From NCBI GenBank assembly GCA_029834535.1, contig JAQMWT010000643.1:1-51571 (forward strand): DNA of 51,571 bases. The letters are read 5' to 3'. Position 1 is the first letter of the stretch; each line of letters starts with the position of its first letter. Position numbers and translations under genes: made by a program. This document shows positions 3,263 to 51,571 of this stretch, one piece after another. The notes beneath the pieces are model-generated. The model saw nothing but the letters and a program-made list of their open reading frames with translations. It had not been told where the DNA came from and did not search any database. The DNA is from Chrysophaeum taylorii. Its lineage: Eukaryota; Sar; Pelagophyceae; Pelagomonadales; Pelagomonadaceae.

Positions 3263-3311
3263 CTGCAGCAAAAAAATTGCAACTGCCGACAGTTCTCCTA
3301 GGCGAAAAAGT

Positions 3312-3920
3312 TTAGTCTCTTCCTCGTTTATTTGGGAACAGTCCGGTTCCAATGCTCAATGAATCGTTCCTGGCATGCTGCTTCCCTTTGTCATTCACGA
3401 ACGCTACTTTCAGCAATAAACATGCTTCTATACCAAAGGGAGATGCGTCTATGCGAATGTAGAGCGGTTTGAAATTGCCAGTGTGATAGTCACTGTCAGA
3501 TGAAACCAGGGGATAAACAATAGCACCCCATGCTTCTTGACATTCCGAGACCACAATCAGATTCAACATACGGCAGAATTGGTTTGCCGTGACATTAGCG
3601 AACTTGCGAATGTAGCGTCAGCAGAAACTCAGTATATGAAAGATCGCCATTGCCTCTTTGGATCTACAGCTGGAATAGTGTCAGGAATCGGCACGCGACG
3701 GATAGAATCCGATGGCCGAGCACTGATGGGCGCTTTCCATCAGGCGTATAAATAGATGTCCCTAGAGTTTGATGTTCATTTTCATTAAATAGTCCTTCTT
3801 CGCCATGTCACTGTCCCCAGATGTGAAATGACAAGGACAATGAACCGCAGTGACCACATGCTTCTGCCCATCTTCAAGTATATCGCTGTAAGCCACGAAT
3901 TCAGAGCGAGTTGATTTTAA
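3312..3920 (-). pseudogene. Ty3/gypsy RT-RNase H relic
   Basis: Read on the minus strand, a mostly continuous but stop-interrupted frame gives, in order, FVAYSDILEDGQKHVV (degraded catalytic FVDD region), MKMNIKL.GH (the LGH box), RYIRKFANVTANQF (the YYRRFI..F box), ECQEAWGAIVYPL and LYIRIDASPFGIEACL (start of RNase H, DAS..G). The same order and several of the same residues occur in the gypsy pol at 46.1-46.6 kb. At least three in-frame stops are present (after KL, after ADS, after SFC), so this is a dead fragment. The 3312-3569 part alone is an 85-codon open frame. Confidence 0.65.
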
Positions 3921-6723: not shown

Positions 6724-8038
6724 GAGAGTAAAAAGCCCACCCGCAAAATGAAGCTCAAGGCCGCGGCGACGGCGATCATGGCGTCTCGACGCTTCTACTC
6801 GTCGTCGTCGCGCGGAAACAGCTTCGAGGACGCGTCCAAACAGCTGCCAAAGCGTTTCAAAGCGGCCGCGCGCGCCATCATGGTCGCCAACAAATTCAAG
6901 GCGAGCCACGCGAAGCGGACCTTGGTCGACGACTTTGACTTTGTCGCGGGCGGCGAGCTCGGGACGGGCGCGCTCAGCGTCGTCAAAAAGGTTCTTCACA
7001 AGCGCACGGGAGACCATTTCGCGTGCAAGTGCGTCGACAAGCACCGGTTGTCGCTCAAGATGCGAAAGGCCTTGGTCGCAGAGGCCACTCTGATGCGCGA
7101 GCTCGACCACCCCAACGTCGTCAAGCTCTGGCACTGCTACGAAGACTCGCGCTACTTCCACATCGTGATGGACCTCATTCAGGGCGGCGAGCTGTTCGTA
7201 CCAGTGTCGTCAAAATCGTAGTCGTCGTTCAAACGCGCGCTCTGTCTGTTGTTGAGGCGCGTGGACCGGGGATGAAAAAAAAAATCAGTTGTTTTATCGT
7301 GACGCGCTGCTGCTGCTGGTGGTGGTCTGACGTTCGGCGCGCAGGTTCGACCGCATCGTCGCGAAGGATTACTACAATGAAAGGGAAGCTCGGGACGTCG
7401 TTCGGACGCTCTTGGACGTGTTGGGCTACCTCCACTACGAGTGCGCTATAGTTCACCGCGACATCAAGCCAGAAAACATTCTGTGCGTGTGCACCAAGGA
7501 CGACACGCGGATCAAGCTGTGCGATTTCGGTTTTGCCGTCAGGCTAGATAACGCCAACTCAACAGCGTGCCTCACGAAGCTGTGCGGTACGCCACAATAC
7601 GTCGCTCCAGAAATCCTGAGGCGCGTGCCGTACGGCGCCGCGGTGGACTTGTGGAGCGTCGGCGTCGTGAGCTACATTTTGCTGTCGGGCTACGCGCCGT
7701 TCGGCGACCAGCCGAGTTTGTCGGACAACATAATCAATGCGAACTACTCCTTCTGCACCCAGTCGTGGGCCCGCGTCTCTAACGAAGGTAAGGACTTCAT
7801 CGGGCACCTCCTCACCGCGAATCCCGCCAACCGCATCACTGCTGAAGAGGCGCTGATCCACCCGTGGATAGCCGAGGACGGCTCGCTGCTCGAAGAACAC
7901 GACCTCGGCGACAATCTCCAGCACCTTATGCAGTTTAACGCCAAGGCCAAATTCAAGGCCGCAGCCAAGACGGTGATCGCGGCGAGGCGCATCGCCAACG
8001 GAACATCTGCCGGATGGACGAGCCCCGCTGCGTCTTGA
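6484..8038 (+). CDS. Ca2+/calmodulin-dependent-type protein kinase (one intron)
   Basis: Exons 6484-7193 and 7345-8038 give 467 residues. The intron 7194-7344 (151 nt; GAGCT|GTTCGT...GCGCAG|GTTCGA) rejoins GGELFDRIV. The Ser/Thr kinase domain (about 150-410) has the Gly loop GELGTGALSVV, Lys in FACKCVDK, Glu in LVAEATLM, the HRD loop IVHRDIKPENIL, CDFGFAV, CGTPQYVAPEIL and DLWSVGVVSYILLSGYAPFG, which places it in the CaMK group. The C-terminus (QFNAKAKFKAAAKTVIAARR) resembles the autoinhibitory/calmodulin-binding helix. Two further copies of that helix sit N-terminal of the kinase at about 89-104 (KMKLKAAATAIMASRR) and 123-139 (KRFKAAARAIMVANKF). A run of ten Asn codons (AAC) precedes them at 71-80. 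Confidence 0.92.
7194..7344 (+). other. Intron of the CaMK gene
   Basis: A GT-AG intron of 151 nt, the longest I can define here. Both junctions carry GTTCG, so exon 1 could be mis-extended; only the junction GAGCT|GTTCGACC restores the kinase motif ELFDRI. Confidence 0.8.
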
Positions 8039-20255: not shown

Positions 20256-20420
20256 TATGGCGCTGCGCGTCTGTCTCGAAAAAAAACGAGCGTGGTTGGT
20301 GCCTCAATCAACATCTTAAGTTTTTTGGTGGTTCTCGAGTGGAACATCTTTCTCCTACAGTAATACAAAAAGCAGGGTTTGAATGAGTTCAGGAAAGCGC
20401 CAGCGTATCCACCACCAATA

Positions 20421-21902
20421 ATGACGTCGACGCCGGTCCGGAGGCGGTCGACCGTGTCGGTGGTGCGGGGCCACGAGGAGCGCGTGAGCCGCGTGTTCTA
20501 CGAGCACGATGCCGACGGAAGCGGTCGACTGTCGCGGTCGCAGCTGCGGTCGGCCCTGGCGGCCCTCGGCGCCCTGGAGGAGGAGGGTTGCGACAAGTTC
20601 ATCGACATGCTGCTGTCGAGGGCGGCGGTCGACTACGAGGGTCACGTCGATGGCGAGCTGACGCTGTTGGAGTTCCGGTCTTTGTTCTACGCGCAGCGGC
20701 TGAAAATGGTATTCGACGGAATCGCGAACGCGAGCGGCCTGATCACGGAAAAGGAACTCGTGTTCGCGTTCCGGGAGGTGATGGCCATCAGCGAGTTTGA
20801 GGCGAAACGGATGGTCGAGTTGTTGGGGGGACGGGTGGATTTCGAGGAGTTTTTCCGGCGGTTCGAATTCGTGCCGGCGGTTGACCTGAAACGGATCGCC
20901 GAGCGGTGGCACCACCCGAGCTGCGAGGACTACGCGATCCAAGTCCCGCCGGGGTTAACGATGGCGCAGACGGTGGTTGTTGGGGGCGTGTCGAGCATCG
21001 CCGCGAGGACAGTGACCGCGCCGTTCGAGCGGCTGAAAATTGAGGCTCAGACGTCGTCGTCTCCTCCGGGTCTCATCGCCGAGGCGCGCCGGATAGCGAG
21101 GAACGAGGGCCCGTTCCGGGGCTTGTTCCTGGGACATTTATTGAACTGCCTGCGCGTCTTTCCGAACGGCGCGATCGGGTGCTCGGTTTTTGTGGGTTTG
21201 CTGCGACGCGAGCCGCAGTCGACGCTGTCGAACCCGAACCTCCACGAGCTCTGGCGCGTCTCCTGCGCCGTCGCGAGCTCGACGTTCGTGACGACCTTAA
21301 CGTACCCAATCGATTCGCTCCGGACGCGCTGGACTGTGATTGGGGGTGGCTCCGAGTCGACGTTTTACGTATCGCCGAAGACCGTCGGCGAGCTGTTCCG
21401 ACTCATTATTCGAGAAGAGGGTTTCGCTTCTCTCTTTCGCGGTCTGGCGCCCGCGCTCTACGCCGTCGCGCCCTTCGTCGCCGTGCAGCAGGCCGCGGTC
21501 GACTTCGCGAGGACCTACACGGTCAAACACCGCATGTGCGACGGCGAGAACCATAACCCGGCGCTGCTGGTTTTCGTTGGAGCCTTTGCCGGCGTCTGCG
21601 CCCAGACCCTCGCCTATCCCTTCGAGGTCGTGCGCAGGCGCATGCAACTCGGTGCCTCGCAGACCGTCGCGACCGCCGATCCCGTTCCCACTCGCACCTG
21701 GCCCGCGCTCCGACAAATTGTCAGAGAACAGGGTGTTCGCGGCCTCTATCACGGTATCCTCCCGACCTACATGATGGTCGTCCCGAGCTGCGCCGCCGGC
21801 TACGCCATCGCCCTCACCATGTTCGATTTTTTCAAGACTCGAAACCACGTTGGTGAAGTCGGAGGACGTCCGCCGGACCTCGTCGCACCGCCACCCCTTT
21901 AA
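20421..21902 (+). CDS. EF-hand mitochondrial carrier (SCaMC/ATP-Mg-Pi type)
   Basis: 493 residues from ATG 20421. The N-terminal ~150 residues are a calcium-sensor module: the first EF-hand loop is canonical (DADGSGRLSRSQ); later hands are degenerate (for example GHVDGELTLLEF, SGLITEKELVF). Then come three mitochondrial carrier repeats with signatures APFERLKIEAQ, YPIDSLRTRW and YPFEVVRRRM, each of P-x-[DE]-x-x-[KR] type, and G-x-x-x-G helices between. This layout is that of short Ca-binding mitochondrial carriers, which exchange ATP-Mg for phosphate across the inner membrane under calcium control. It sits 199 bp after the p32 gene on the same strand. Confidence 0.9.
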   Translation: MTSTPVRRRSTVSVVRGHEERVSRVFYEHDADGSGRLSRSQLRSALAALGALEEEGCDKFIDMLLSRAAVDYEGHVDGELTLLEFRSLFYAQRLKMVFDGIANASGLITEKELVFAFREVMAISEFEAKRMVELLGGRVDFEEFFRRFEFVPAVDLKRIAERWHHPSCEDYAIQVPPGLTMAQTVVVGGVSSIAARTVTAPFERLKIEAQTSSSPPGLIAEARRIARNEGPFRGLFLGHLLNCLRVFPNGAIGCSVFVGLLRREPQSTLSNPNLHELWRVSCAVASSTFVTTLTYPIDSLRTRWTVIGGGSESTFYVSPKTVGELFRLIIREEGFASLFRGLAPALYAVAPFVAVQQAAVDFARTYTVKHRMCDGENHNPALLVFVGAFAGVCAQTLAYPFEVVRRRMQLGASQTVATADPVPTRTWPALRQIVREQGVRGLYHGILPTYMMVVPSCAAGYAIALTMFDFFKTRNHVGEVGGRPPDLVAPPPL

Positions 21903-39985: not shown

Positions 39986-40885
39986 TCAAGAGGCCCAGAA
40001 GGACGTAACGAAGGTGGTCGACCATGATGATGAATTGGTCCTTTTTGGCACGTCGACGAGGATGCGAGACGCAAAGCCACAGCAGGGCCACCACTGGTGC
40101 CAGCGGGCGGTGGTCGCGTCGTAGAAGGGGCGGTGGGGTGGCGCGATGGCGTCCGGCGGACACCTCGGACACGGGAGGGTGAGCTTGGACAGGCGACTTT
40201 TGGCGTGGTCGATGTCGGCCTTGACGAGGGCTAGGCTTCCCGTTTTGGGTCGACTCACGATAAGCATCGATGACATGAGGCCGCTGGCGACGGTCGAGTG
40301 TCCAACCGCCTCGAAGGTCTGGGTCGCGTCGGAGCCGGCGAAGTCGAGGAGAGTATCCGCCGATCCCGGATGGCTGCTGGCGAAGGTCGTGACGTCGTAG
40401 AGCGCGCCTCGGATCCCGACGTGGACCCGGGAATCTTCCAAATTGGCCCCGACCAACGCGTGTTCGAGCCACGTGACGGCGTACTGCGAGTAAAACAACT
40501 TCCACGGCGTGCCAGGGGGCGCCCGCGACCGCCGCCCGATTGCTCGACTTAGTGCCGCGTCCACCTCAAAAAAATCGCGATGCCACACGCTCTGCCAGAC
40601 CGCATCGGCGTCGGCCATCGAGCGCCATCGCGGACATACGACGGCAGCTGCCGCGATGCGTCGCGCCTCCAGCAATTCGAACACACACCGAACCACGTCG
40701 TCGGGTACCTGCACGCTTGACACGCTCGGCGACGCCACCTGCACCACCTTGGCCTTGTAGCACCATGCGTCGGCGTACGATCGCATCGTCGACGGCACCG
40801 ACTGCCAGTAGGCCACCGACAGCGACACCAACACCATCACGACGTGCGACCAAAACTGCCACTCCTCGCCGCAAAACCACAACAT
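39986..40885 (-). CDS. Membrane-anchored F-box protein with cytochrome b5-like domain
   Basis: 299 residues. The N-terminus has a hydrophobic helix (FWSHVVMVLVSLSVAYW). Residues about 60-105 (VPDDVVRCVFELLEARRIAA through VCPRWRSMADADAVWQSVW) form an F-box, which recruits Skp1-cullin ubiquitin ligases. A cytochrome b5-like domain follows at about 150-210: VHVGIRGALYDVTTFASSHP and GSADTLLDFAGSDATQTFEAVGHS, with both probable haem-ligand His residues (HPG and GHS) kept although the usual HPGG is HPGS. The C-terminus is Pro/Cys-rich (CPRCPPDAIAPPHRP). Fusion of F-box and cytochrome b5 suggests a haem- or lipid-linked substrate adaptor; that is inference. Confidence 0.75.
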   Translation of the reverse strand: MLWFCGEEWQFWSHVVMVLVSLSVAYWQSVPSTMRSYADAWCYKAKVVQVASPSVSSVQVPDDVVRCVFELLEARRIAAAAVVCPRWRSMADADAVWQSVWHRDFFEVDAALSRAIGRRSRAPPGTPWKLFYSQYAVTWLEHALVGANLEDSRVHVGIRGALYDVTTFASSHPGSADTLLDFAGSDATQTFEAVGHSTVASGLMSSMLIVSRPKTGSLALVKADIDHAKSRLSKLTLPCPRCPPDAIAPPHRPFYDATTARWHQWWPCCGFASRILVDVPKRTNSSSWSTTFVTSFWAS

Positions 40886-40920
40886 CTGCTCTTAATAACA
40901 ATTCGAAACAAGTACACTGT

Positions 40921-42253: not shown

Positions 42254-42612
42254 ACCTATCTCTACACGAGGGTTTTCTCTCCGTAATACGGCTTTCCCTC
42301 GTTACTCCTGTCCTTCCTTACCCTTCCGCAATTATATATTTTCATGACTATGAAGAACCCTGTCTGATGCTCTTTTCCAACATGGAGTAGGCTTCCAGGT
42401 GCGTACCGTCAGGTACGGTGTGTTCTGTTTAATTAACAGCGGCTTCGTTCCTCGTTGTCAGTGTAAACGCTTCTATGGGACCTAATGTCCTTAAGGAGTT
42501 AGGGCTTAAATCCCTACCTTGTGTAGTAGCATGTGACAAGCGGAATGGTCCGTACACGCCTAAGACTGCACGCAGTCTCTACCATGTACCCGGAAAGGGT
42601 CAAATCTCTCCA
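42254..42612 (+). repeat. 359-bp dispersed repeat, copy 2
   Basis: Same length and orientation as 2597-2955. It ends at CAAATCTCTCCA and is joined directly to the truncated gypsy pol, so this end marks a recombination or insertion point. Confidence 0.75.
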
Positions 42613-43010
42613 CGATGAAGGCGAGCTTCCGATTAAGCGCAAGCTGTGCGGATCGGGGTTGAATACGACGACGATCTATCGTTGGATCGCGATCCGGGTT
42701 GCTCTCGCCGACGACATCGCTGCCCCCATTGTCGCTATTGCGGCCGACACCAATCATCTTTTCCTGTTGGGAGGGCGCGACATCTGAGTTTTAGGAGCGG
42801 TGGTGGACTATCCCCACGACCGAATTTGTTTTTGCCGAACCCAAGTCGTCTACGGGCGCGAGAAGATTAAAGTCAAGGGTGAACGAGTCGATGCACCCAT
42901 TGTGACCTTTCGATCTGTTTACGCCCTGCGATCGCTAACCGTTGGTTGCGATGGAGGACGGCGCCTAACACGCTTGCTCCCTGCGGCGGCCCCGGCCGTC
43001 CCGGAGTGAG
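42613..43010 (+). pseudogene. Retropepsin-like fragment of gypsy pol
   Basis: The frame 42613-43010 (one TGA at 42785) reads RWIAIRVALADDIAAPIVAI, then HLFLLGGRDI*VLGAVVDYPHDRICF. The LLG-R-D-I...-AVVDY-.DRI.F pattern matches the C-terminal half of retropepsins, where ILGxDFL precedes a D-Y/F-x(n)-I-x-F strand. The active-site DTG part is not visible, so the fragment starts inside the domain. Confidence 0.45.
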
Positions 43011-43285
43011 ACGGTGCCTGCTCGCCTCCCGGGCTGGCCGGTTAGCACCCGGAAAGTCCGCGCTGGGATGGGGTTCGCTCGGTTGGGCAGAACGCGACGG
43101 ACAGGTCGATTGTTCGTGGACCAACACGTCCGCTTCCTGCGACGCTTTTGCAAGACCTCGCACAAGACCGCGCGCAGTGGCGGTCCACCATCAACAAGTC
43201 CGTCCTCGTCCCTCGCCTCTGGCCCCAACTGCGTGATTTTCCTCTGTGATTCCGTACCGGCTCCTGCCGGTCCGGCCTGGCTCCC

Positions 43286-44131
43286 ATGCTCGGGAGAGGT
43301 CTGAAGTTAGTTAGATCTGTTTACGATCGAGATCCGGTAACCGTGCCGATTTACAATCATCAGCACGACGCCTTTCGACGGAGTCTCGACCTGGTCAAGA
43401 CCCGAGTTTATGCTCGTTTGAGCACGATTAAAGATCTCCGCAGCCCGCCGCCGGAACGAGCGGTAGCCTTGACGACGCGGGGACATTCTAAGACCAAACT
43501 TTCCCCAGCTCCGGGAGAAGCCGCGCATGAAGTTGTTGCTTACGCTGCGCGCACGCTACTAATCGAGCCCGGTCGAACTTACAATTTGCCGGTTATTTTG
43601 TCGAAGCCTATGGGATAAGGACAGGTCTTCGTCGCTACGTTTGCTGAAAATGAGCAGATGGGAATTGTCGAAGGGATGTGCTCTTCTTGCGAAGAGCACG
43701 ACAAGTCATCTGCTCGCTTGGCTGTTATTTCCACGCAAGAAGTGCCGACGGTCGTCACTCAAGGCGAGGTTCTCACAATCGGCGATATCGCTCGGTACGA
43801 AGATGAGTTGAGCGTTTCTGCGATTAACGAGCTTACGAATGAATGTAAGGAAGGGTACGACAAGGGGAGCCTTTCCTTCACCGTTTCCGTCGCTAGTCAT
43901 TTGACGCGCTGCGACGAATCTCCCCTGCCGATGTTGCTGAGCACGGCGCAGAAGGACGCTCCAGCTGCTGCGTCCTCCCCCAAACGACCCAAGCGAGACG
44001 ACGACTTCGCTCGACGGTCTGAAGAAGATGAGAAAAAGTGCCGCGAGATCACCGAAGCAGAGATCCGCCGCCGATACGGAAAGGTCCAAAAGGCTCATTG
44101 TTTATTGCGATCACTTATCGCAAGGTGGTGA
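43286..44131 (+). pseudogene. Beta-rich domain between protease and methyltransferase
   Basis: RTLLIEPGRTYNLPVILSKP, then (across a stop at 43616) GQVFVATFAENEQMGIVEG, then ARLAVISTQEVPTVVTQGEV and LTIGDIARYE. This resembles the beta-rich module that follows the protease in many gypsy elements (P.G....V.V......G..LVEP....L...V......V.V.N.....V.L..GT.LG). It is followed by a charged linker with KRPKRDDDFARRSEEDEKK. The two halves share one frame. Confidence 0.45.
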
Positions 44132-44990
44132 TGCTGTTCAGTGGAGCCGGAGGCAGTACTTTAGGTCTCCAACGAGCCAACGAAATGCGTGGAACGTCGT
44201 TTCGAGTCGTGTTAGCACTCGATTCGTCGGACACCGCCAACAAGATCCACCGCAAGAATTTTCCGAACATTCCTGTGGTGCAGCACACGCTTTGTGGTCG
44301 CTATGTTACAACCTTACGGTTGATCGAAACTTATTTACCTTACGCGGAATGGTCGTCGTCGATGTGCATCGCGTCGCCACCCTGCGTACACTCCGCTCTG
44401 TGCAACTTGACTTCCAGTGATGTTGGCAAGGGAGTCACCGCCACCCACTGGACGATGAAATTATGCAAGATGGCTGGTTTCTTCATGTGGCTGATAGAGC
44501 AGGAGGCCTCGATTATTTCTTATGTCGCGCGTCTACACCCTTAAGTGTACGTCGTCAATTTTTACGACATAACGCCCAGTTTGATGAGCTGTCGCGTGTG
44601 ATTGTTGGTTTCCAGCCACCCGCTCCACTTGCGCGCAGTTCCCATGACCTGCAAGAATATGCAACAAGAGTTCGCCGCTGCGCTTGGCTACGCAGACGAA
44701 CGGCATTTACTTCAGATGAACAATTTAGGATCATCACGAGCCGCGACGGACGCACCTTATACCGTTACGCGTGTCCCGCTTCGCGTAGGACCGCACCGTT
44801 CCGATTACCGATCTCTGAATTTGAAAATGACTTCGGAGTTGCTCACGATGCCCCTTGATTTTGATTGGGCCGGCTTCTCCAGGACGACCTCGTTGAAAAA
44901 CCTGGCGTACGTCGTACCACCAGACACGATGGCTTTATTAGTACTCGATCTGCACAACTCTGTGACCAAGGATTTTCACTTGAGCGGCGA
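44125..44990 (+). pseudogene. C5-cytosine DNA methyltransferase domain inside gypsy pol
   Basis: Motif I VVMLFSGAGGSTLGL (44125-44169, S-adenosylmethionine loop), motif II region VVLALDSSDTANKIHRKNFP, motif IV CIASPPCVHSA with the catalytic Cys codon at 44383-44385, motif VI region FFMWLIEQEASII (usual E-N-V is E-Q), a TAA at 44542-44544, then VYVVNFYDIT, motif VIII AQFDELSRVIVGF in the neighbouring frame (usual Q-x-R-x-R), and back in the first frame motif IX YRSLNLKMTSELLTMPLDFDW and motif X LAYVVPPDTMALLV (usual GN-x-VPP). The enzyme family transfers methyl to C5 of cytosine. The frame changes look like a one-base loss in a C run near 44567 and a compensating change near 44655. Confidence 0.85.
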
Positions 44991-45342
44991 GGCTTTGCCG
45001 TCCGCGTTGAGCCCTGCAGACCGACCGTTCGACCATTATTTGCAAATCGATGAAACCGCCCTTCGTCACGTACAAGTTCCGCTGTTAAACACGCGCACAC
45101 GTGTCGTAAGGTGGGTGTCGACTGATGATCCCCAAGATCGCACCAAATGGAAACCTTCCGAAGTGCCTTTGCTTCCGCCTGCAACAGATGAGCCGCGGAC
45201 GTCTCATGCTTTTTCTGCTGCCCCCCCCCGACAACCAAAGTTAGACGTTCCGCCAGATCCTGAGTAAGATCAGGAACCGAAGATTAAGAGCGAGCCGAGC
45301 GTTCGTGTCAAAGGCGAGAAGATCAACAAAAGCCACCCGGAA
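44991..45342 (+). other. Linker between methyltransferase and reverse transcriptase
   Basis: The methyltransferase frame continues to TAA at 45265-45267 with HNSVTKDFHLSGEALPSALS and DETALRHVQVPLLNTRTRVV; the latter looks structured but I cannot name it. The stretch after the stop reads as a charged linker (KIKSEPSVRVKGEKINKSHP-like) in the same frame. Confidence 0.4.
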
Positions 45343-46137
45343 GTGAGATTAAATTACGAGAAAAAGTTCGAGGTGCCATGGAAAGATGCGCCGCGCGATG
45401 CTGATGGTGCACCGCTACCGCAAACTCCCGAGCATGTCAAGAATAACGAGGCTATGAAAGTGAAGATTCCTACGAAGGAAGAAGTTGACAAGGTTGTTCA
45501 GGAGCTTGGAATTCCTGACAATCCGCACTTAGACAATGATGCGAAGTTGATGCTCCGTCATTGTGTGCAATACTCGTGGGCCTTTTTCGACCCGACTATG
45601 AGACCTGTGGACTCGCCACCTGTGTCTCTACGATTCAAAGACGCGAATCCGCGACCGATTAAGATGACGCCCTACCGATTGACGCCTGCGAAGCTCGATT
45701 GTCTCCGCAAGCAGATCAGTGAGTGGTGTCGCGATGGAGTTATTCGCCCGGCTAACTCACCTTGGGGCTTTCCTGTGTTGATGCTTCCCAAGAAAGGAGC
45801 TGAGATTGGAACGTCAAACGCGTTCCGCGCTGCAGTTGACTTACGTCAGCTCAACGATCAATTGGTCAATGACAGTTGGCCGAACATTCGACAAGATGAT
45901 GCTTTAGCTTTTCTCGCCATGCGACGCTGGCGGACATGCATTGATATTAGATGGGGATATCACAACCTTCGTCTGGATACGGCAGCGCAAGACGCTGTCA
46001 CGATGGTTAGCCCACTTGGAGCTCATAGTTTCTTGCGATTACCTCTGGGTGTGAAAAAGGCCGGAGCTCTATTCTGCAAGCAGATGGCGAGCGACCATTT
46101 CGAAATGGATGTATCGAGACTTAGTTGCGTTTGTTGA
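45343..46137 (+). pseudogene. Gypsy reverse transcriptase, palm/fingers part
   Basis: RPIKMTPYRLTPAKLDCLRK, EWCRDGVIRPANSPWGFPVL, AFRAAVDLRQLNDQLVNDSW, RTCIDIRWGYHNLRLDTAAQ, GAHSFLRLPLGVKKAGALFC: conserved RT blocks of Ty3/gypsy pol. The normal D-L-x-x-G-Y-H reads DIRWGYH. The frame ends at 46137 because of an indel near 46105; the catalytic FVDDI (46130-46144) is in the next frame. Confidence 0.85.
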
Positions 46138-46942
46138 CGATATTATGATGGGACCCGACGATCTTCATCGACATTCAAAAGTTTTGATAGAAATTATGTG
46201 TCATTTGGCACAGAGAGGGTACAGCGGTCGAACCGCAAAATTCCACCTCCTCAAAGATGAGACAGAATTTCTGGGACACATTTCGACTCCAGAAGGCTTG
46301 AAGCCGAATCCGAAGACGCTGGAAGCGCTGCAGAACATGTCGATTCCAGGTACTTTGCCGAATACTTCTCCGAAGACCCAGATACGGTCTTTCATCGGCA
46401 TGAGCAATTATTGCCGGCGATATGTGAAGGGCTATTCGAAGATCGTGGGGCCGTTGAGACGATTATGCCTCGAAGGTGTAATGTTCGAATGGACGCCCGA
46501 GTGTCAGAAAGCTTGGGATACGATTATTGAAGCTTTGGTTGATTCCCGTGGAGTCTACCACCCCGATTGTGATCTGCCTTTTCAGATCCGATCCGATGCT
46601 TCCAAGGATGGACTTGGAGCATATCTCTTCCAGATTGTCGAAGTCAAGGACAAGGCAGGAAGAGTAACTCGAGAAGAACGAGTGATTGAGTACTGGAGCC
46701 GAGCCGTGCCGAAGGAGATGCGCAATTATGAGCCTCGTCCGCTGGAGCTGCTGGCTGTTGTCCTTTCTCTGGAGCACTTTCGAGCCTATATCGAAGGGCA
46801 CCGGACTGTTTTGGAAACCGATCACCGAATTTTGACGTTTTTACGTAAGGCGACGCACTCGTCTGGACAGCCTGCTCGCTGGGCGATGTCGCCAACTTTG
46901 ACCCTGAACTTGGTTACGAGCCGGGAAAGTCACCGGGTATGA
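46109..46942 (+). pseudogene. Gypsy reverse transcriptase end and RNase H
   Basis: LVAFVDDIMMGPDDLHRHSK carries the catalytic Asp pair; FLGHISTPEGLKPNPKTLEA, FIGMSNYCRRYVKGYSKIVG and FEWTPECQKAWDTI complete RT. RNase H follows with IRSDASKDGLGAYL, EYWSRAVPKEMRNYEPRPLE and LETDHRILTFLRKA. A one-base change near 46890 shifts the frame; the correct continuation NFDPELGYEPGKSPG lies in the integrase frame. Confidence 0.88.
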
Positions 46943-48501
46943 GTATCTCTGGCTGTCTCTCCCGCAATCCGATAGATCATGTCATCGAGACTGACGAGTT
47001 TGGAGAACCTTTGAACCACGTCTATTTGGTGTTCCAAGAGCTTCCCCGACCTATTGATGACCACGGAATTCCTGCCTCCGGCTGTCACTTTATATTGTCG
47101 TTTGTCACGACCGAACTGCCGGAAGACGAGGAAGAAGATCCCGAAAAAGATCCGATGAAATTGGCTACGTCTCACGCTACGAGACAACGTCGGAAGCACC
47201 GCGTGCGCGATGAGCCGCAGGTCTTCAAGGACGCAGCCGCGTACAAGGATTACATTCATAAAATTCCCGATAATATCACGCTCGATGAGATCGCGCGTGA
47301 GCAGGAAGCTTATGCTACCTGCGAGGATATTCGTTATCGAATGGCCCAAGGTCATACGTTGCGACGTTACGGAGCTAACGAACGATATGAAGTTGTGAAG
47401 GACATTCTTTACCGCATTTCTGTTGATTTGCACCCGATGATTGTGGCCCCTGCCACGTTGCGCAAGCGCATTATTCGACTCTACCATGACACTCCGGTTA
47501 ACGGTGGTCATATGGGACGTCACAGTACCGTCCAGGCTATCCAGGAACGATTTTGGTGGCCCCACATGTCGAACGAAGTCGGAATCTTCATTTCCGAATG
47601 TTTAGTCTGTCAGAAAGCTCGTACGCCTGAGCCGAAACGAGCTGGACTCTTGCAGCAGCCTGTCTACGATGGTGACGGCGCTGTACTACGCATGGATTTA
47701 TTCGGGCCTTTGCCCAGTGCTGGTCCCGAGACGTATCTATTAGTGTTTTTCGATCCGTTCTCAGATTTCTTGATTTTGGATGTGTTGAACGACAAGACTG
47801 CTGAATCCATTCTCGAGTCCTTTGTCATTAACATCCTCCTCAAGGGCTACTTGCCCCAGATGATTCGTACCGACAACGGTAAAGAGTTCGTGAACAAGTT
47901 GATGCGCGAGTTTTGCCATCTCTTCAACACGCGCTACAAAACCACGATCCCGCATCATTCCCAGTCGAACCCTGCTGAGCGTGTGAGCCGGTTTATCAAG
48001 GCCATCCTCCGTGCTTGCCTTCAGGGCCGGAACATCACGGATTGGCCCGACTTTGCCCACTATATTGCGTTTTGCTACAATCGCAAATTCATTCCAGGCA
48101 CGCAGATTTCTCCCTTTATGCTACGCCTGAACCGTCAGCCTATGTTGCCGACCGATTATACCCTTATGGATGTCGATACCCGACTGTTGCCGAAGACTCG
48201 CTCTGATGCAGTCGCTGAAACTCGTGAACGATTGAAGTATTATACGAAGATCGTCCACGACGCTCGTGATAAAGCTTTGAAGAAACAACGATTGGCTTAT
48301 AACGCCGATCATGTCGATGTAGAATACAAGGAAGGATCGCATGTTTTGCTCTACATTCCTTTCCTTCAGAACAAGCTTCGACCGGAATGGCGAGGACCGT
48401 TTATTATCAAGGAACGGCTTTTCCCGGTCATCTACAGATTGAGTCTTTCGACTCTCCGCCCGAAGAACAACGTGTTCATGTTAGTCAGATCACCCCTGTG
48501 A
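46939..48501 (+). pseudogene. Gypsy integrase (left element)
   Basis: 520 codons. The HHCC zinc domain (LYHDTPVNGGHMGRHSTVQA ... ECLVCQKA), the DDE core (VLRMDLFGPLPSAG, MIRTDNGKEFVNKL, NPAERVSRFIKAIL) and a GPF/Y-like module (LRPEWRGPFIIKERL) are all intact. The frame breaks near 48440, where the right copy has one more G in the run before ATTGAGTC. RNase H-to-integrase linker contains a proteolytic-linker-like charged stretch (PEDEEEDPEKDPMKL). Confidence 0.9.
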
Positions 48502-49026: not shown

Positions 49027-49340
49027 TGTGGCGGCAACTCCCGCCTCCTAAGGCTTACCCCTCTTCTAGGGCCCCCTGTTATCAGGGGCGCCCTACTCCG
49101 ATCTGATGACCTCAGTTTCCTCTATGACATCATCTTCCCTAATTTCTGTGATTCAAGAGTTCTTAATCATAAAGCAACAGCCGATCCTCAAGTTGCGAGG
49201 ATCAGGCACGGATGTTGTTCGTGATTGTGTGGCGGGTGAACGGCCGTCCACGTCCAGCGACTCGATCAAGAGCACGGGCGTGAGCGGTGAGCCTATATTC
49301 GAAGGTGAGCCCAGGTAGGAAAGTTTCCCTGTCCGCCACA
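49027..49340 (+). repeat. 3' LTR of the left gypsy element
   Basis: 314 bp beginning TGTGGCGGC right after the polypurine stretch AGGGGGGTCC and ending TCCGCCACA, so the ends form an 8-base inverted repeat (TGTGGCGG/CCGCCACA). Inside is the hairpin GATCCTC-AAGTTGC-GAGGATC (49183-49203) and a TATATTCGAAGG stretch. The reverse-complement partner is at 49534-50025. Confidence 0.8.
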
Positions 49341-49533
49341 GACTCTTCAACCGCCACTTTTTTAGGTCGCCCCCCAATTTCGACGCATGGGTTTAAGGTC
49401 GCCCCCCCAAAATCACCACTTTCTTTAAGGTCGCCCGCCCCAAAATCACCACTTTTTTTAAGGTCGCCCCCCCAAAAACAATATGTTTATAACGTCGCCC
49501 CCCCAAAATCGCCACTTTTTTTACGGTCGTCCC
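49341..49533. repeat. 32-bp minisatellite between the two gypsy LTRs
   Basis: About five tandem copies of a 31-33-bp unit, consensus GGTCGCCCCCCCAAAATCACC followed by ACTTTTTTTAA, with unit starts at about 49365, 49397, 49429, 49462, 49493 and 49525. It fills nearly the whole gap between the two inward-ending LTRs. Confidence 0.85.
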
Positions 49534-50025
49534 TGTGGCGGACACGGAAATTTTACCTACCTGGGCTCACCTTCGAATCTAGGCTCGCCGCTCACGCCCG
49601 TGCTCTTGATCGAGTCAACTGGACGTGGAAGGCCGTCCACCCGCCACACAGCCACGTCCGTGCCTGGTCCTCGCAACTTGAGGATCGGCTTGTGGCGTTA
49701 CAGGAAATTATGCCTGCCTGGCTCATCTTGAATCTAGGCTCGCCGCTCACGCCCGCGCTCTTGATCGAGTCACTGGATGTGGAAAGCCGTTCTCTCGCCA
49801 CACAACCACAAACAACTTCCGTGCCTGGTCCTCACAACTTGAGGATCGGCTGTTGCTTTATGATTAAGATACTCTCGAATCACAGAAATCAGGGTGACGT
49901 ATGTCACGGAAAAAGGAAGATGATGTCATAGAGAAAACTGACATCATCGGAACGGAGTAGGATGCCCCTGATAGGGGGGCCCTAGAAGAGGGGTAAGCCT
50001 TAGGAGGCGGGAGTTGCCGCCACAG
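49534..50025 (-). repeat. LTR of the right gypsy element, with internal 161-bp duplication
   Basis: On the minus strand it begins TGTGGCGGC at 50025 and ends TCCGCCACA at 49534, the same ends as the left LTR, but it has 492 bp instead of 314. The extra length is a tandem duplication of about 161 bp: GTGCCTGGTCCTC.CAACTTG occurs at 49660 and again at 49821, and GAATCTAGGCTCGCCGCTCA at about 49574 and 49731. Confidence 0.75.
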
Positions 50026-50064
50026 GACTCCCCTGGTAAGATTACGAGCTGCCCCAGCGAGCGG

Positions 50065-50419
50065 CTAGCGCGAGGAGCGCGGCTTCGCCTTACGAGCATC
50101 TCGTGCACGAATCTTCTTGTAAACGCGGGTGATGATCGGTTCGGGAACTCGACCACTGCGTAGAGTAAACTTGGGGACCAACACATCAATCTCGTGTGGC
50201 GCGATGTCCGTGACACAAGGAGTTGTCCTGGATGAGATCTTGGACTTGTCGGTGAAACTGCGACCGTCAACGTCCTTGTACTCAGGCTCAAGCTTGCGGT
50301 TCGAAAGGTGATAAGTCGGCTTGAAATAAGCGACATCATCGTTCGGACCCAAATCGGTATAGAAATGCAGAGCAACATGATCATTCTGGTAATCGTATGG
50401 CTCTAAACTTCGGCAACAT
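50065..50419 (-). pseudogene. Integrase C-terminal extension (right element)
   Basis: From about 50352 leftward the frame gives GPNDDVAYFKPTYHLSNRKL, EPEYKDVDGRSFTDKSKISS and the same basic end KKIRARDARKAKPRSSR, stop at 50065-50067. Between 50420 and 50352 an indel and TAG replace the left copy's VYVPEVYEPYDYQND stretch. Confidence 0.7.
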
Positions 50420-51124
50420 CTATATCTTCTTGCGCCAATCAGGGCGCTTCAGGTCACGAATCTGGAAAACAACAAAATTACCGTGTTGATAATCATCACG
50501 GAAGGTTTCTTCGGGTTTGCGGATGGCTTGATCAACGATCGGAGGAACCATCACAGGCGTGATCTGACTAACATGAACACGTCGTTCTTCGGGCGGAGAG
50601 TGGAGAGACTCAATCCTATAGGTGACCAGGGAAAGGCGTTCCTTGATAATAAACGGTCCTCGCCATTCCGGTCGAAGCTTGTTCGGAAGGAAAGGAATAT
50701 AGAGCGAAACATGCGCTCCTTCTTTATATTCGACATCGACATGATCGGCGTTGTAAGCCAGTCGTTGTTTCTTCAAAGCTTTATCACGAGCTTCGTGGAC
50801 GATCTTCGTATAATACTTCAATCGTTCACGAGTTTCAGCGACTGCATCAGAGCGAGTCTTCGGCAACAGTCTGGTATCGAAATCCATAAGCGTATAATCG
50901 GTCGGCAACATTGGCTGACGGTTCAGGCGTAGCATAAAGGGAGAAATCTGCGTGCCTGGAATAAACTTGCGGTTGTAGCAAAACGCAACGTTATGGGCAA
51001 AGCTGGGCCAATCCGTGATGTTCCGGCCCTGAAGGCAGGCACGAAGGAAGGCCTTGATAAATCGGTTCACACGCTCAGCAGGGTTCGACTGGGCATGATA
51101 GGGAATCGTGGTTTGGTATCGCAT
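50420..51124 (-). pseudogene. Integrase, C-terminal half (right element)
   Basis: RYQTTIPYHAQSNPAERVNR (third catalytic residue E), CLQGRNITDWPSFAHNVAFC, RPEWRGPFIIKERLSLVTYR, IESLHSPPEERRVHVSQITP. The frame is open across the point where the left copy is broken, which shows how the two halves of the left integrase belong together. Confidence 0.85.
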
Positions 51125-51571
51125 GTTGAAGGCAAAACTCGCGCATCAACTTGTTCACGAACTCTTTACCGTTGTCGGTACGAATCATCTGGGGCAAGTG
51201 GCCCTTGAGGAGGATGTTAATGACAAAAGACTCGAGAGTGGATTCAGCGGTCTCATCGTTCAAAACATCTAAAATCAAGAAGTGCGAGAACGGATCGAAA
51301 AACACTAGAAGATACGTCTCGGGACCAGCGCTGGGCAAAGGTCCAAATAAATCCATGCGCAGAACAGCGCCACCACCATCGTAGACGAGCCTGCAAGCCA
51401 GCCTGTTTCGGCTCAGGCGTCGGCTTTCTGGCAAACTAAACATTCAACAATGAAGATTCCGACTTCGTTGACATGTGGGGCCACCAAAATCGCGTCCTGA
51501 CACGGTACTGTGACGTCCCCGTATGACCACCGTTAACCAGGTGATCGTAATAATGCGCTTGCGCAATGTTG
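51075..51571 (-). pseudogene. Integrase, N-terminal part and first catalytic residues (right element)
   Basis: LVYDGGGAVLRMDLFGPLPS, PETYLLVFFDPFSHFLILDV, PQMIRTDNGKEFVNKLMREF: first and second catalytic Asp. A five-base deletion near 51133 shifts to the frame of the next feature. Upstream to the window end, HHCC-region codons (WWPHMS, LVCQKA equivalents) are present with indels. Confidence 0.8.

Follow-up and report, generated by a model that had tools for sequence, protein, structure and literature searches.

Retrotransposons that carry DNA methyltransferases (MTases) are already known, with MTases reported in LINE and DIRS elements of the dinoflagellate Symbiodinium and in a gypsy element of the charophyte Klebsormidium (de Mendoza et al. 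2018; PMC5890265). Expression in yeast of two MTase domains from SymbioDIRS-Dnmt3 led to de novo CG methylation; no activity was seen there for the Klebsormidium gypsy MTase or for that of the LINE, a result that the authors deem inconclusive (PMC5890265). PMC12344493 names DNMT3-bearing LTR Copia and DIRS elements and credits the former to the 2018 paper, where the Klebsormidium element is a gypsy. Dam- and Dcm-encoding gypsy and DIRS elements are mentioned for several groups including stramenopiles in PMC6338049, whose available text names no such element, and PMC12477816 describes Dam-type MTases of DIRS elements and, in the brown-algal DNA transposon Sola1 of Ectocarpus, a ParB-MTase gene of the N4/N6 type. 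Orchid gypsy elements contain an RNA demethylase domain (PMC9289625). MTase capture presents the paradox of a parasite that carries the tool of its own silencing.

Here we describe MTase-bearing LTR retrotransposons in Chrysophaeum taylorii, starting from a stretch of 51,571 nucleotides (the window; contig JAQMWT010000643.1 of assembly GCA_029834535.1, positions 1 to 51,571). A sequence-only reading of this stretch had proposed a cytosine-5 MTase (C5-MTase) captured by a Ty3/gypsy element, and had guessed that the host is a stramenopile, as indeed it is (a pelagophyte). Like KnitGypsy-Dnmt3 of Klebsormidium nitens, the C. taylorii gypsy element has a C5-MTase within a Ty3/gypsy Pol frame, with key residues kept and purifying selection; compared by description, the two differ in that the K. 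nitens MTase is a DNMT3 and its element has DIRS-like repeats (PMC5890265), whereas the C. taylorii element has a direct LTR pair (seen in one copy), no visible DNMT3 affinity, 150 scored places and a pelagophyte host. SymbioDIRS-Dnmt3 and SymbioLINE-Dnmt are likewise high-copy, intronless retrotransposon MTases spread over several element classes of an algal genome, but those classes are DIRS and LINE rather than gypsy and copia, and in the available text of PMC5890265 Symbiodinium copia elements are without a DNMT domain. The LTR Copia elements of PMC12344493 resemble the C. taylorii copia elements in carrying a C5-MTase, yet the motifs of the latter's MTase are Dcm-like, and none of the three PDB chains it matched is a DNMT3. 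The Dam-type DIRS and Sola1 MTases are also DNA MTases of mobile elements, Sola1 in a stramenopile, but are adenine or N4-cytosine enzymes in DIRS elements or DNA transposons (PMC12477816). Among the top-listed papers of our literature search, outside which lay most subscription papers and bioRxiv preprints, there was no account of MTase-bearing elements in a pelagophyte. What is new here is another eukaryote group, the involvement of two LTR superfamilies and the absence of any sign of DNMT3 ancestry.

Results

The window contains a decayed Ty3/gypsy element with an MTase domain

The window MTase is part of a decayed, 5'-truncated Ty3/gypsy copy on the plus strand that spans 42596 to about 49318 and comprises, in order, a partial protease-like region, a linker, the MTase, reverse transcriptase (RT), RNase H, integrase and a 3' LTR remnant. 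We mapped these parts by comparison with a better-preserved copy elsewhere in the genome (L031/L035). The C-terminal part of the protease-like region lies at 42596..42943 (79% identity to L031 residues 865-980 by tblastn; 86% over 42613-42923 by blastn) and is followed by an insertion of ~390 bp at 42924..43315, across which L031 is continuous (7080-7089) while the window alignment jumps from 42923 to 43316. The linker occupies 43310..44119 (L031 residues 969-1240, 77% identity), and the MTase domain 44122..45030, colinear with L031 residues 1238-1540, its ends being inferred from the tblastn alignment. RT lies at 45787..46280 (PF00078 at L031 residues 1793-1957) with a frame change near 46091-46095, RNase H at 46490..46900 (PF17917/PF17919), and integrase at 47449..47957, with an H2C2 zinc finger (PF17921, 3.9e-18) and an rve core (PF00665, 2.2e-10), all three being mapped via L031. 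By these profile matches integrase follows RT and RNase H, the Ty3/gypsy order. The LTR remnant at 49027..49318 is 77% identical to the 336-bp LTR of L031/L035 by blastn. The copy is broken by in-frame stops at 44029, 44542, 44599 and 45265, the middle two within the MTase domain, and by frame changes further along pol. Its match to the L031 polyprotein begins at residue 865, past the putative protease active site at residue 846, and that site is absent from the truncated window copy. The MTase was expected to lie between a retropepsin-like region and RT of one element: the position and the common element hold, but the protease-like region is partial and lacks the putative active site in the window.

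Tail to tail with this copy, and forming inverted repeats with it, lies another copy of the element, represented by its 3' half (49689..51569, minus strand; 87% identity to L031 by blastn), with its own LTR at 49730-50024 (minus strand, 86% to the L031 LTR). Five ~32-bp tandem units of the AGGTCGCCCCCCCAAAATC type, at 49355-49532, separate the two copies. A decayed gypsy-type RT of a separate lineage, ~25% identical to the L031 RT and containing stop codons, is present at 3301-3902 (minus strand). The window also includes a mitochondrial carrier with N-terminal EF-hands (20364-21902, plus strand) and a host-like frame in which an F-box is joined to a cytochrome b5-like domain (39986-40891, minus strand).

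The domain has the motifs and profile scores of a C5-MTase

Five motifs lie in order in a single plus-strand frame: motif I, LFSGAGG (44134..44154), in which Phe and Gly-x-Gly-Gly are invariant among seven aligned stop-free copies; motif IV, ASPPC (44371..44385), with the catalytic Cys in a Pro-Cys pair invariant in the same seven; the motif VI-like LIEQEAS (44491-44511); the motif IX-like ELLTMP (44836-44853); and motif X, VVPPD (44911-44925). In all, motifs I, IV, VI, VIII, IX and X, numbered as in general use, are assigned to the domain. The order proposed earlier stands for these five motifs and fails for QFDELSR, which begins at 44577 in another frame, the conserved frame reading ITPSLMSC at 44569-44592. 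A loose motif I-IV-Glu pattern, written after the sequence had been seen, had no second match in the six frames of the window. Across seven gypsy sequences of subfamilies A to C, chosen as stop-free, the Gly-rich loop of motif I, the Pro-Cys, the motif VI Glu and the motif VIII Arg-x-Arg are present in all seven; motif VI itself is unusual, reading IEQE instead of ENV. Because the motif residues, invariant in 17 of 17 cases, had been picked after the alignment was viewed, their invariance was not used as a test.

The anticipated C5-methyltransferase profile hit was obtained with Pfam PF00145 (DNA_methylase) for the window frame and for related copies. The window frame at 44032-44544 scored 22 bits (E 1.2e-4), at the curated cut-off of 22 bits, and stop-free domains of other copies scored 25.9 (gypsy A), 26.4 (gypsy B) and 35.6 and 34.9 bits (L064 and L063 of gypsy C). 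In gypsy A and B the match is confined to 57 N-terminal residues, the better of two matched stretches in L064 corresponds to the C-terminal part of the profile, and the full L031 polyprotein reached just 18.7 bits, below the cut-off. Matches to NCBIfam dcm (18-34 bits, far below its cut-off of 100.65) and to PHROG DNA-methyltransferase agree with the MTase identity. The predicted fold of the N-terminal part of the window MTase (146 residues, single sequence, no alignment) was uninterpretable at a pLDDT of 33.8. Taken with the selection data below, the domain in these elements is almost certainly a C5-MTase domain maintained by selection.

The MTase is a regular part of the gypsy element across the genome

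The genome searched has 697 contigs totalling 70,800,356 bases. Of 857 first-look candidates for the window MTase fragment, 150 places were scored, among them the fragment's own, and every one of these matched at 80-100% identity. A 737-residue query covering MTase to RT gave 65 matches (61 of 1746 candidates scored), 58 of which start at or before residue 180, in the MTase, and end at or beyond residue 560, the start of RT; 45 of the 65 extend from residue 30 or earlier to residue 640 or later. These data bear out the proposal that the domain belongs to the element and is no one-off host insertion. The suggested genome check for full-length copies yielded L031/L035, an element of ~10.3 kb with an open frame of 3,067 codons that encodes, as a single frame, a protease-like region, the MTase, RT, RNase H and integrase. 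Its LTRs are 336 bp long, 100% identical, and have TG...CA ends (C5:520043-520378 and 529995-530330). Comparison of the flanking bases by eye showed no target-site duplication at this one copy; such duplications can be lost through recombination. An Asp-Gly motif is visible by eye at residue 846 of L031, and a Pfam search of L031 gave no protease match.

For subfamily C (L063 and L064), identity is 38-39% across the MTase alignment, or 38-42% when measured by tblastn, and reaches 51-64% in pol. Its MTase precedes RT, and it retains the catalytic Pro-Cys, Glu and Arg-x-Arg; its MTase had at least 126 matches in the genome, with 117 of 925 candidates scored. Judged from these alignments, the predicted gypsy MTase is old, having descended together with its Pol for long enough to reach 38% identity with its catalytic residues kept.

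Ty1/copia elements also carry an MTase

The sequence-only reading had not foreseen that MTase-bearing Ty1/copia elements are present in this genome; they lie outside the window, which has no such copy. PF00145 had at least 57 matches in the genome (123 of 474 candidates scored). Thirty of these came with loci, two being other genes (L001 and L002) and 28 (L003-L030) matching one copia MTase, copia-1; one further match (C314, L032) is also copia-1, and the remaining 26 fall outside this count. Within 1.5-kb flanks, 27 of the 28 loci have the protease part and 25 the downstream pol (L017 being the query copy). In L033, a frame of 1,952 residues encodes a protease-like region with an Asp-Gly-Gly-Ala motif (seen by eye), the MTase (349-475), an rve integrase core (1016-1110; E 0.0061, 17.2 bits, under the Pfam cut-off of 32.6) and an RVT_2 RT (1686-1933; E 1.6e-38). 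Integrase thus precedes an RT of the RVT_2 type, the Ty1/copia arrangement, and L033 has an LTR pair of ~200 bp with 84-96% identity in two pieces. A perfect 217-bp tandem duplication (L033:957-1390) lies on the 5' side of this copia-1 element, between the LTR and the gag-side frame. The copia-1 MTase domain scores 35.2 bits against PF00145; its motif I is degenerate (AGGLHQEG), and Cys, Glu and Arg are present in all 28 loci, a count biased towards retention by the use of the MTase profile to pick them.

A second lineage, copia-2 (L065 and L066; 50% mutual identity, 121/240), had at least 99 matches in the genome (97 of 1339 candidates scored). Its domains matched no Pfam (PF00145 included) or NCBIfam MTase profile, and a PHROG match was obtained for L065 alone (E 0.028, weak), but motifs occur in order (TPPC/TSPC, AEMTPP/MEMTPP, YQ-RERW) and the domain aligns colinearly with copia-1 (E 0.049 for one pair, probability 1.1%). 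By its motifs, the copia-2 domain is probably an MTase.

At the sequence level, two LTR retrotransposon superfamilies of this genome have a C5-MTase as a constitutive Pol domain; in both it follows the protease, and it precedes RT in Ty3/gypsy and integrase in Ty1/copia. Eight reverse transcriptase matches, in frames of 565-716 residues, are listed on contig C696 (58,038 bp, very probably mitochondrial); these are likely group II intron proteins.

The MTase is under purifying selection

We estimated dN/dS (Nei-Gojobori) for 24 of 25 extracted gypsy copies (L062, in neither group, was left out) and for copia-1; because copies recur in several pairs, the pairs are not independent, and dS values close to 1.9 are saturated, such that the direction is clear and the figures are inexact. 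Between gypsy A and B, dN/dS was 0.073 for the MTase (ratio of sums, 140 pairs; dS about 1.8-1.9) and 0.029 for RT of the same copies. The corresponding values were 0.191 (91 pairs) and 0.188 within A, and 0.363 (45 pairs) and 0.315 within B, where eight of ten copies contain stops. For copia-1, dN/dS was 0.162 in the MTase (the 197 of 378 pairs with dS >0.5), 0.164 in the protease part (249 pairs, with 38 of 378 removed for shortness or saturation) and 0.208 in early pol (84 pairs; 104 of 378 dropped). Selection that keeps the MTase in working shape suggests that it has a role for the elements themselves or for their host.

The element MTases are distinct from host and known MTases

A search of 5.8 billion proteins (requiring shared 5-residue words and a length of 0.55-1.75 of the query) found no relatives of the gypsy MTase alone, the copia-1 alignment or the MTase part of a long gypsy C frame, and IMG/VR held none for the L031, A1 and A2 queries. 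In phage tblastn searches the best E was 0.3 for gypsy A and 0.01 for gypsy C; copia-1 matched a phage MTase at 2e-6 (25% identity over half of the query), and copia-2 had no match. On these results, a prokaryotic or viral donor is possible. In a first profile search of PDB with the gypsy MTase, two unrelated proteins came out on top (E 0.16 and 0.26), followed by DNMT2 chains (0.34 and 0.35); a more diverse alignment placed two chains labelled cytosine-specific methyltransferase (0.28 and 0.57) above DNMT2 (1.6). The DNMT2 matches cover ~60 residues and none is significant. Copia-1 matched three chains labelled cytosine-specific methyltransferase (0.04-0.07). Among PDB matches up to E 10, all of them weak, no DNMT3 chain appeared for gypsy or copia-1, in searches run without a DNMT3 control, and no DNMT1 chain for gypsy; together with the protein searches, this upholds the earlier suggestion of a distinct MTase lineage. 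At least two MTase acquisitions are likely, because the gypsy and copia-1 MTases fail to align with each other by profile, although fast divergence from a single acquisition is possible.

Of the two other genes recovered with PF00145, L001 is the host DNMT2 (human DNMT2, PDB 1g55, E 4e-39), and L002 matches a single PDB sequence (E 3e-143), which appears in four entries under the label Rad8 and which we take to be Cryptococcus DNMT5. Neither the gypsy nor the copia-1 MTase matched host DNMT2 or L002 by tblastn at 1e-3. Membership of the gypsy or copia-1 MTase in DNMT5 was rejected: the gypsy profile aligned with host DNMT5 over 19 columns at a probability of 0.2%, and tblastn gave no match. 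The alignment of host DNMT2 with the gypsy MTase spans 133 columns and pairs up motifs I and IV (probability 5.6%; single-pair E 0.0068), and DNMT2 membership was likewise rejected for want of significant full-length similarity. Support for a DNMT2 origin is weak, and a DNMT2-like activity is weighed below as a rival explanation. No DNMT1, DNMT3 or DNMT6 was found among the PF00145 matches that were opened, which represent part of the candidates and were read with introns ignored. A review credits Aureococcus with DNMT5 (PMC3145265), and DNMT6 is tied to RNA modification in PMC12344493. Since a survey found DNMT5a and DNMT6 in pelagophytes (PMC9998398), the host likely has a DNMT6 that escaped detection.

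Element copies bear no clear CpG methylation footprint

In gypsy A the observed/expected CpG ratio was 1.27-1.29. Gypsy C (1.02-1.04) and copia-1 (1.01-1.02) had lower ratios and copia-2 the lowest (0.90-0.93), compared with 1.41 in host-like DNA of the window (4001-38000), itself richer in G+C. CpT had the most C/T differences per site, followed by CpG, in gypsy A (0.056 against 0.041), gypsy B and copia-1, in copy pairs that are not independent and with coding constraint uncorrected. With so little CpG depletion in gypsy A, and with CpT rather than CpG at the peak of C/T differences, there is no clear CpG methylation footprint, gypsy A showing none in either the depletion or the mutation test. 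These data speak against heavy CpG methylation of old copies and leave methylation in other contexts, or transient marking, unaffected; a mild CpG footprint is possible in gypsy C and in the copia families.

Discussion

We propose that the Pol-linked enzyme methylates newly made element DNA, an explanation whose chances we put at about even. The MTase would be produced within the Pol polyprotein and would be present at the site of cDNA synthesis, where it would methylate cytosines of the double-stranded cDNA no later than integration, a step to which we give equal weight for and against. A new copy would then land pre-marked, to be taken for resident DNA or placed under tolerable silencing, and host DNMT5 could maintain that mark. 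In favour of this explanation count the PF00145 scores, the uninterrupted Pol frames, the linkage of MTase and RT, the identical LTR pair, purifying selection, the kept catalytic residues, the host DNMT5 and the yeast activity of SymbioDIRS-Dnmt3; against it count the CpG and C/T results, the unusual motif VI, the short Pfam match of gypsy A and B, the unrelated proteins ranked first in one PDB search, and the inactivity in yeast of the Klebsormidium gypsy and LINE MTases.

Other explanations must be weighed against this one. DNMT2 is a tRNA C38 MTase, and the gypsy enzyme could, in the same manner, modify RNA, either that of the element or the tRNA primer of reverse transcription. Its SPPC and NFP segment resemble DNMT2, DNMT2 chains are among its weak PDB matches, the host DNMT2 alignment includes motifs I and IV, and RNA methylation was also raised for SymbioLINE-Dnmt by de Mendoza et al. 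(PMC5890265). We nonetheless consider RNA unlikely to be the target, given non-significant PDB scores that unrelated proteins surpass in one search and cytosine-specific methyltransferase-labelled chains in the other, and the failure of tblastn to match host DNMT2. Far divergence from known families and the odd motif VI of the gypsy form would suit an MTase descendant that has lost its activity and serves as a structural or nucleic-acid-binding module, but the cofactor-loop and catalytic residues are invariant across gypsy copies 38% identical, Cys, Glu and Arg persist in all 28 copia-1 loci, and a scaffold has no need of a catalytic Cys, which makes loss of activity rather improbable.

The MTase might instead serve host or element in defence, by modifying DNA that belongs to rival elements or to DNA viruses. 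Methylases in retrotransposon polyproteins have been given such a role in a general proposal, itself speculative (PMC6338049), and many copies would supply dosage; we find this quite improbable. The window copy by itself, broken and merely at the Pfam cut-off, might have passed for a chance insertion of a host MTase gene or a chance likeness of motifs, but the matches at every scored place, the presence of the MTase in a second gypsy subfamily (C), its in-frame fusion with Pol and purifying selection refute this reading, to which we attach practically no credence.

The finding of these elements bears on the source of new methylation in DNMT5 hosts. Nuclear de novo cytosine methylation in this host might come largely from retrotransposon MTases that arose at least twice, and be maintained by DNMT5, in which case the genome would have handed its epigenetic writing to its parasites; we hold this to be very doubtful, and the likely presence of DNMT6 weighs against the elements as its main source, although DNMT6 is tied to RNA modification in PMC12344493. 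The genome of C. taylorii NIES-1699 was sequenced by Nanopore (PMC10366177), so existing data may allow a test of methylation across element copies. Within a single genome, both major LTR superfamilies hold an MTase at a matching place, kept by selection across deep divergence, and for these reasons an accident is unlikely and a benefit tied to LTR replication is suggested.
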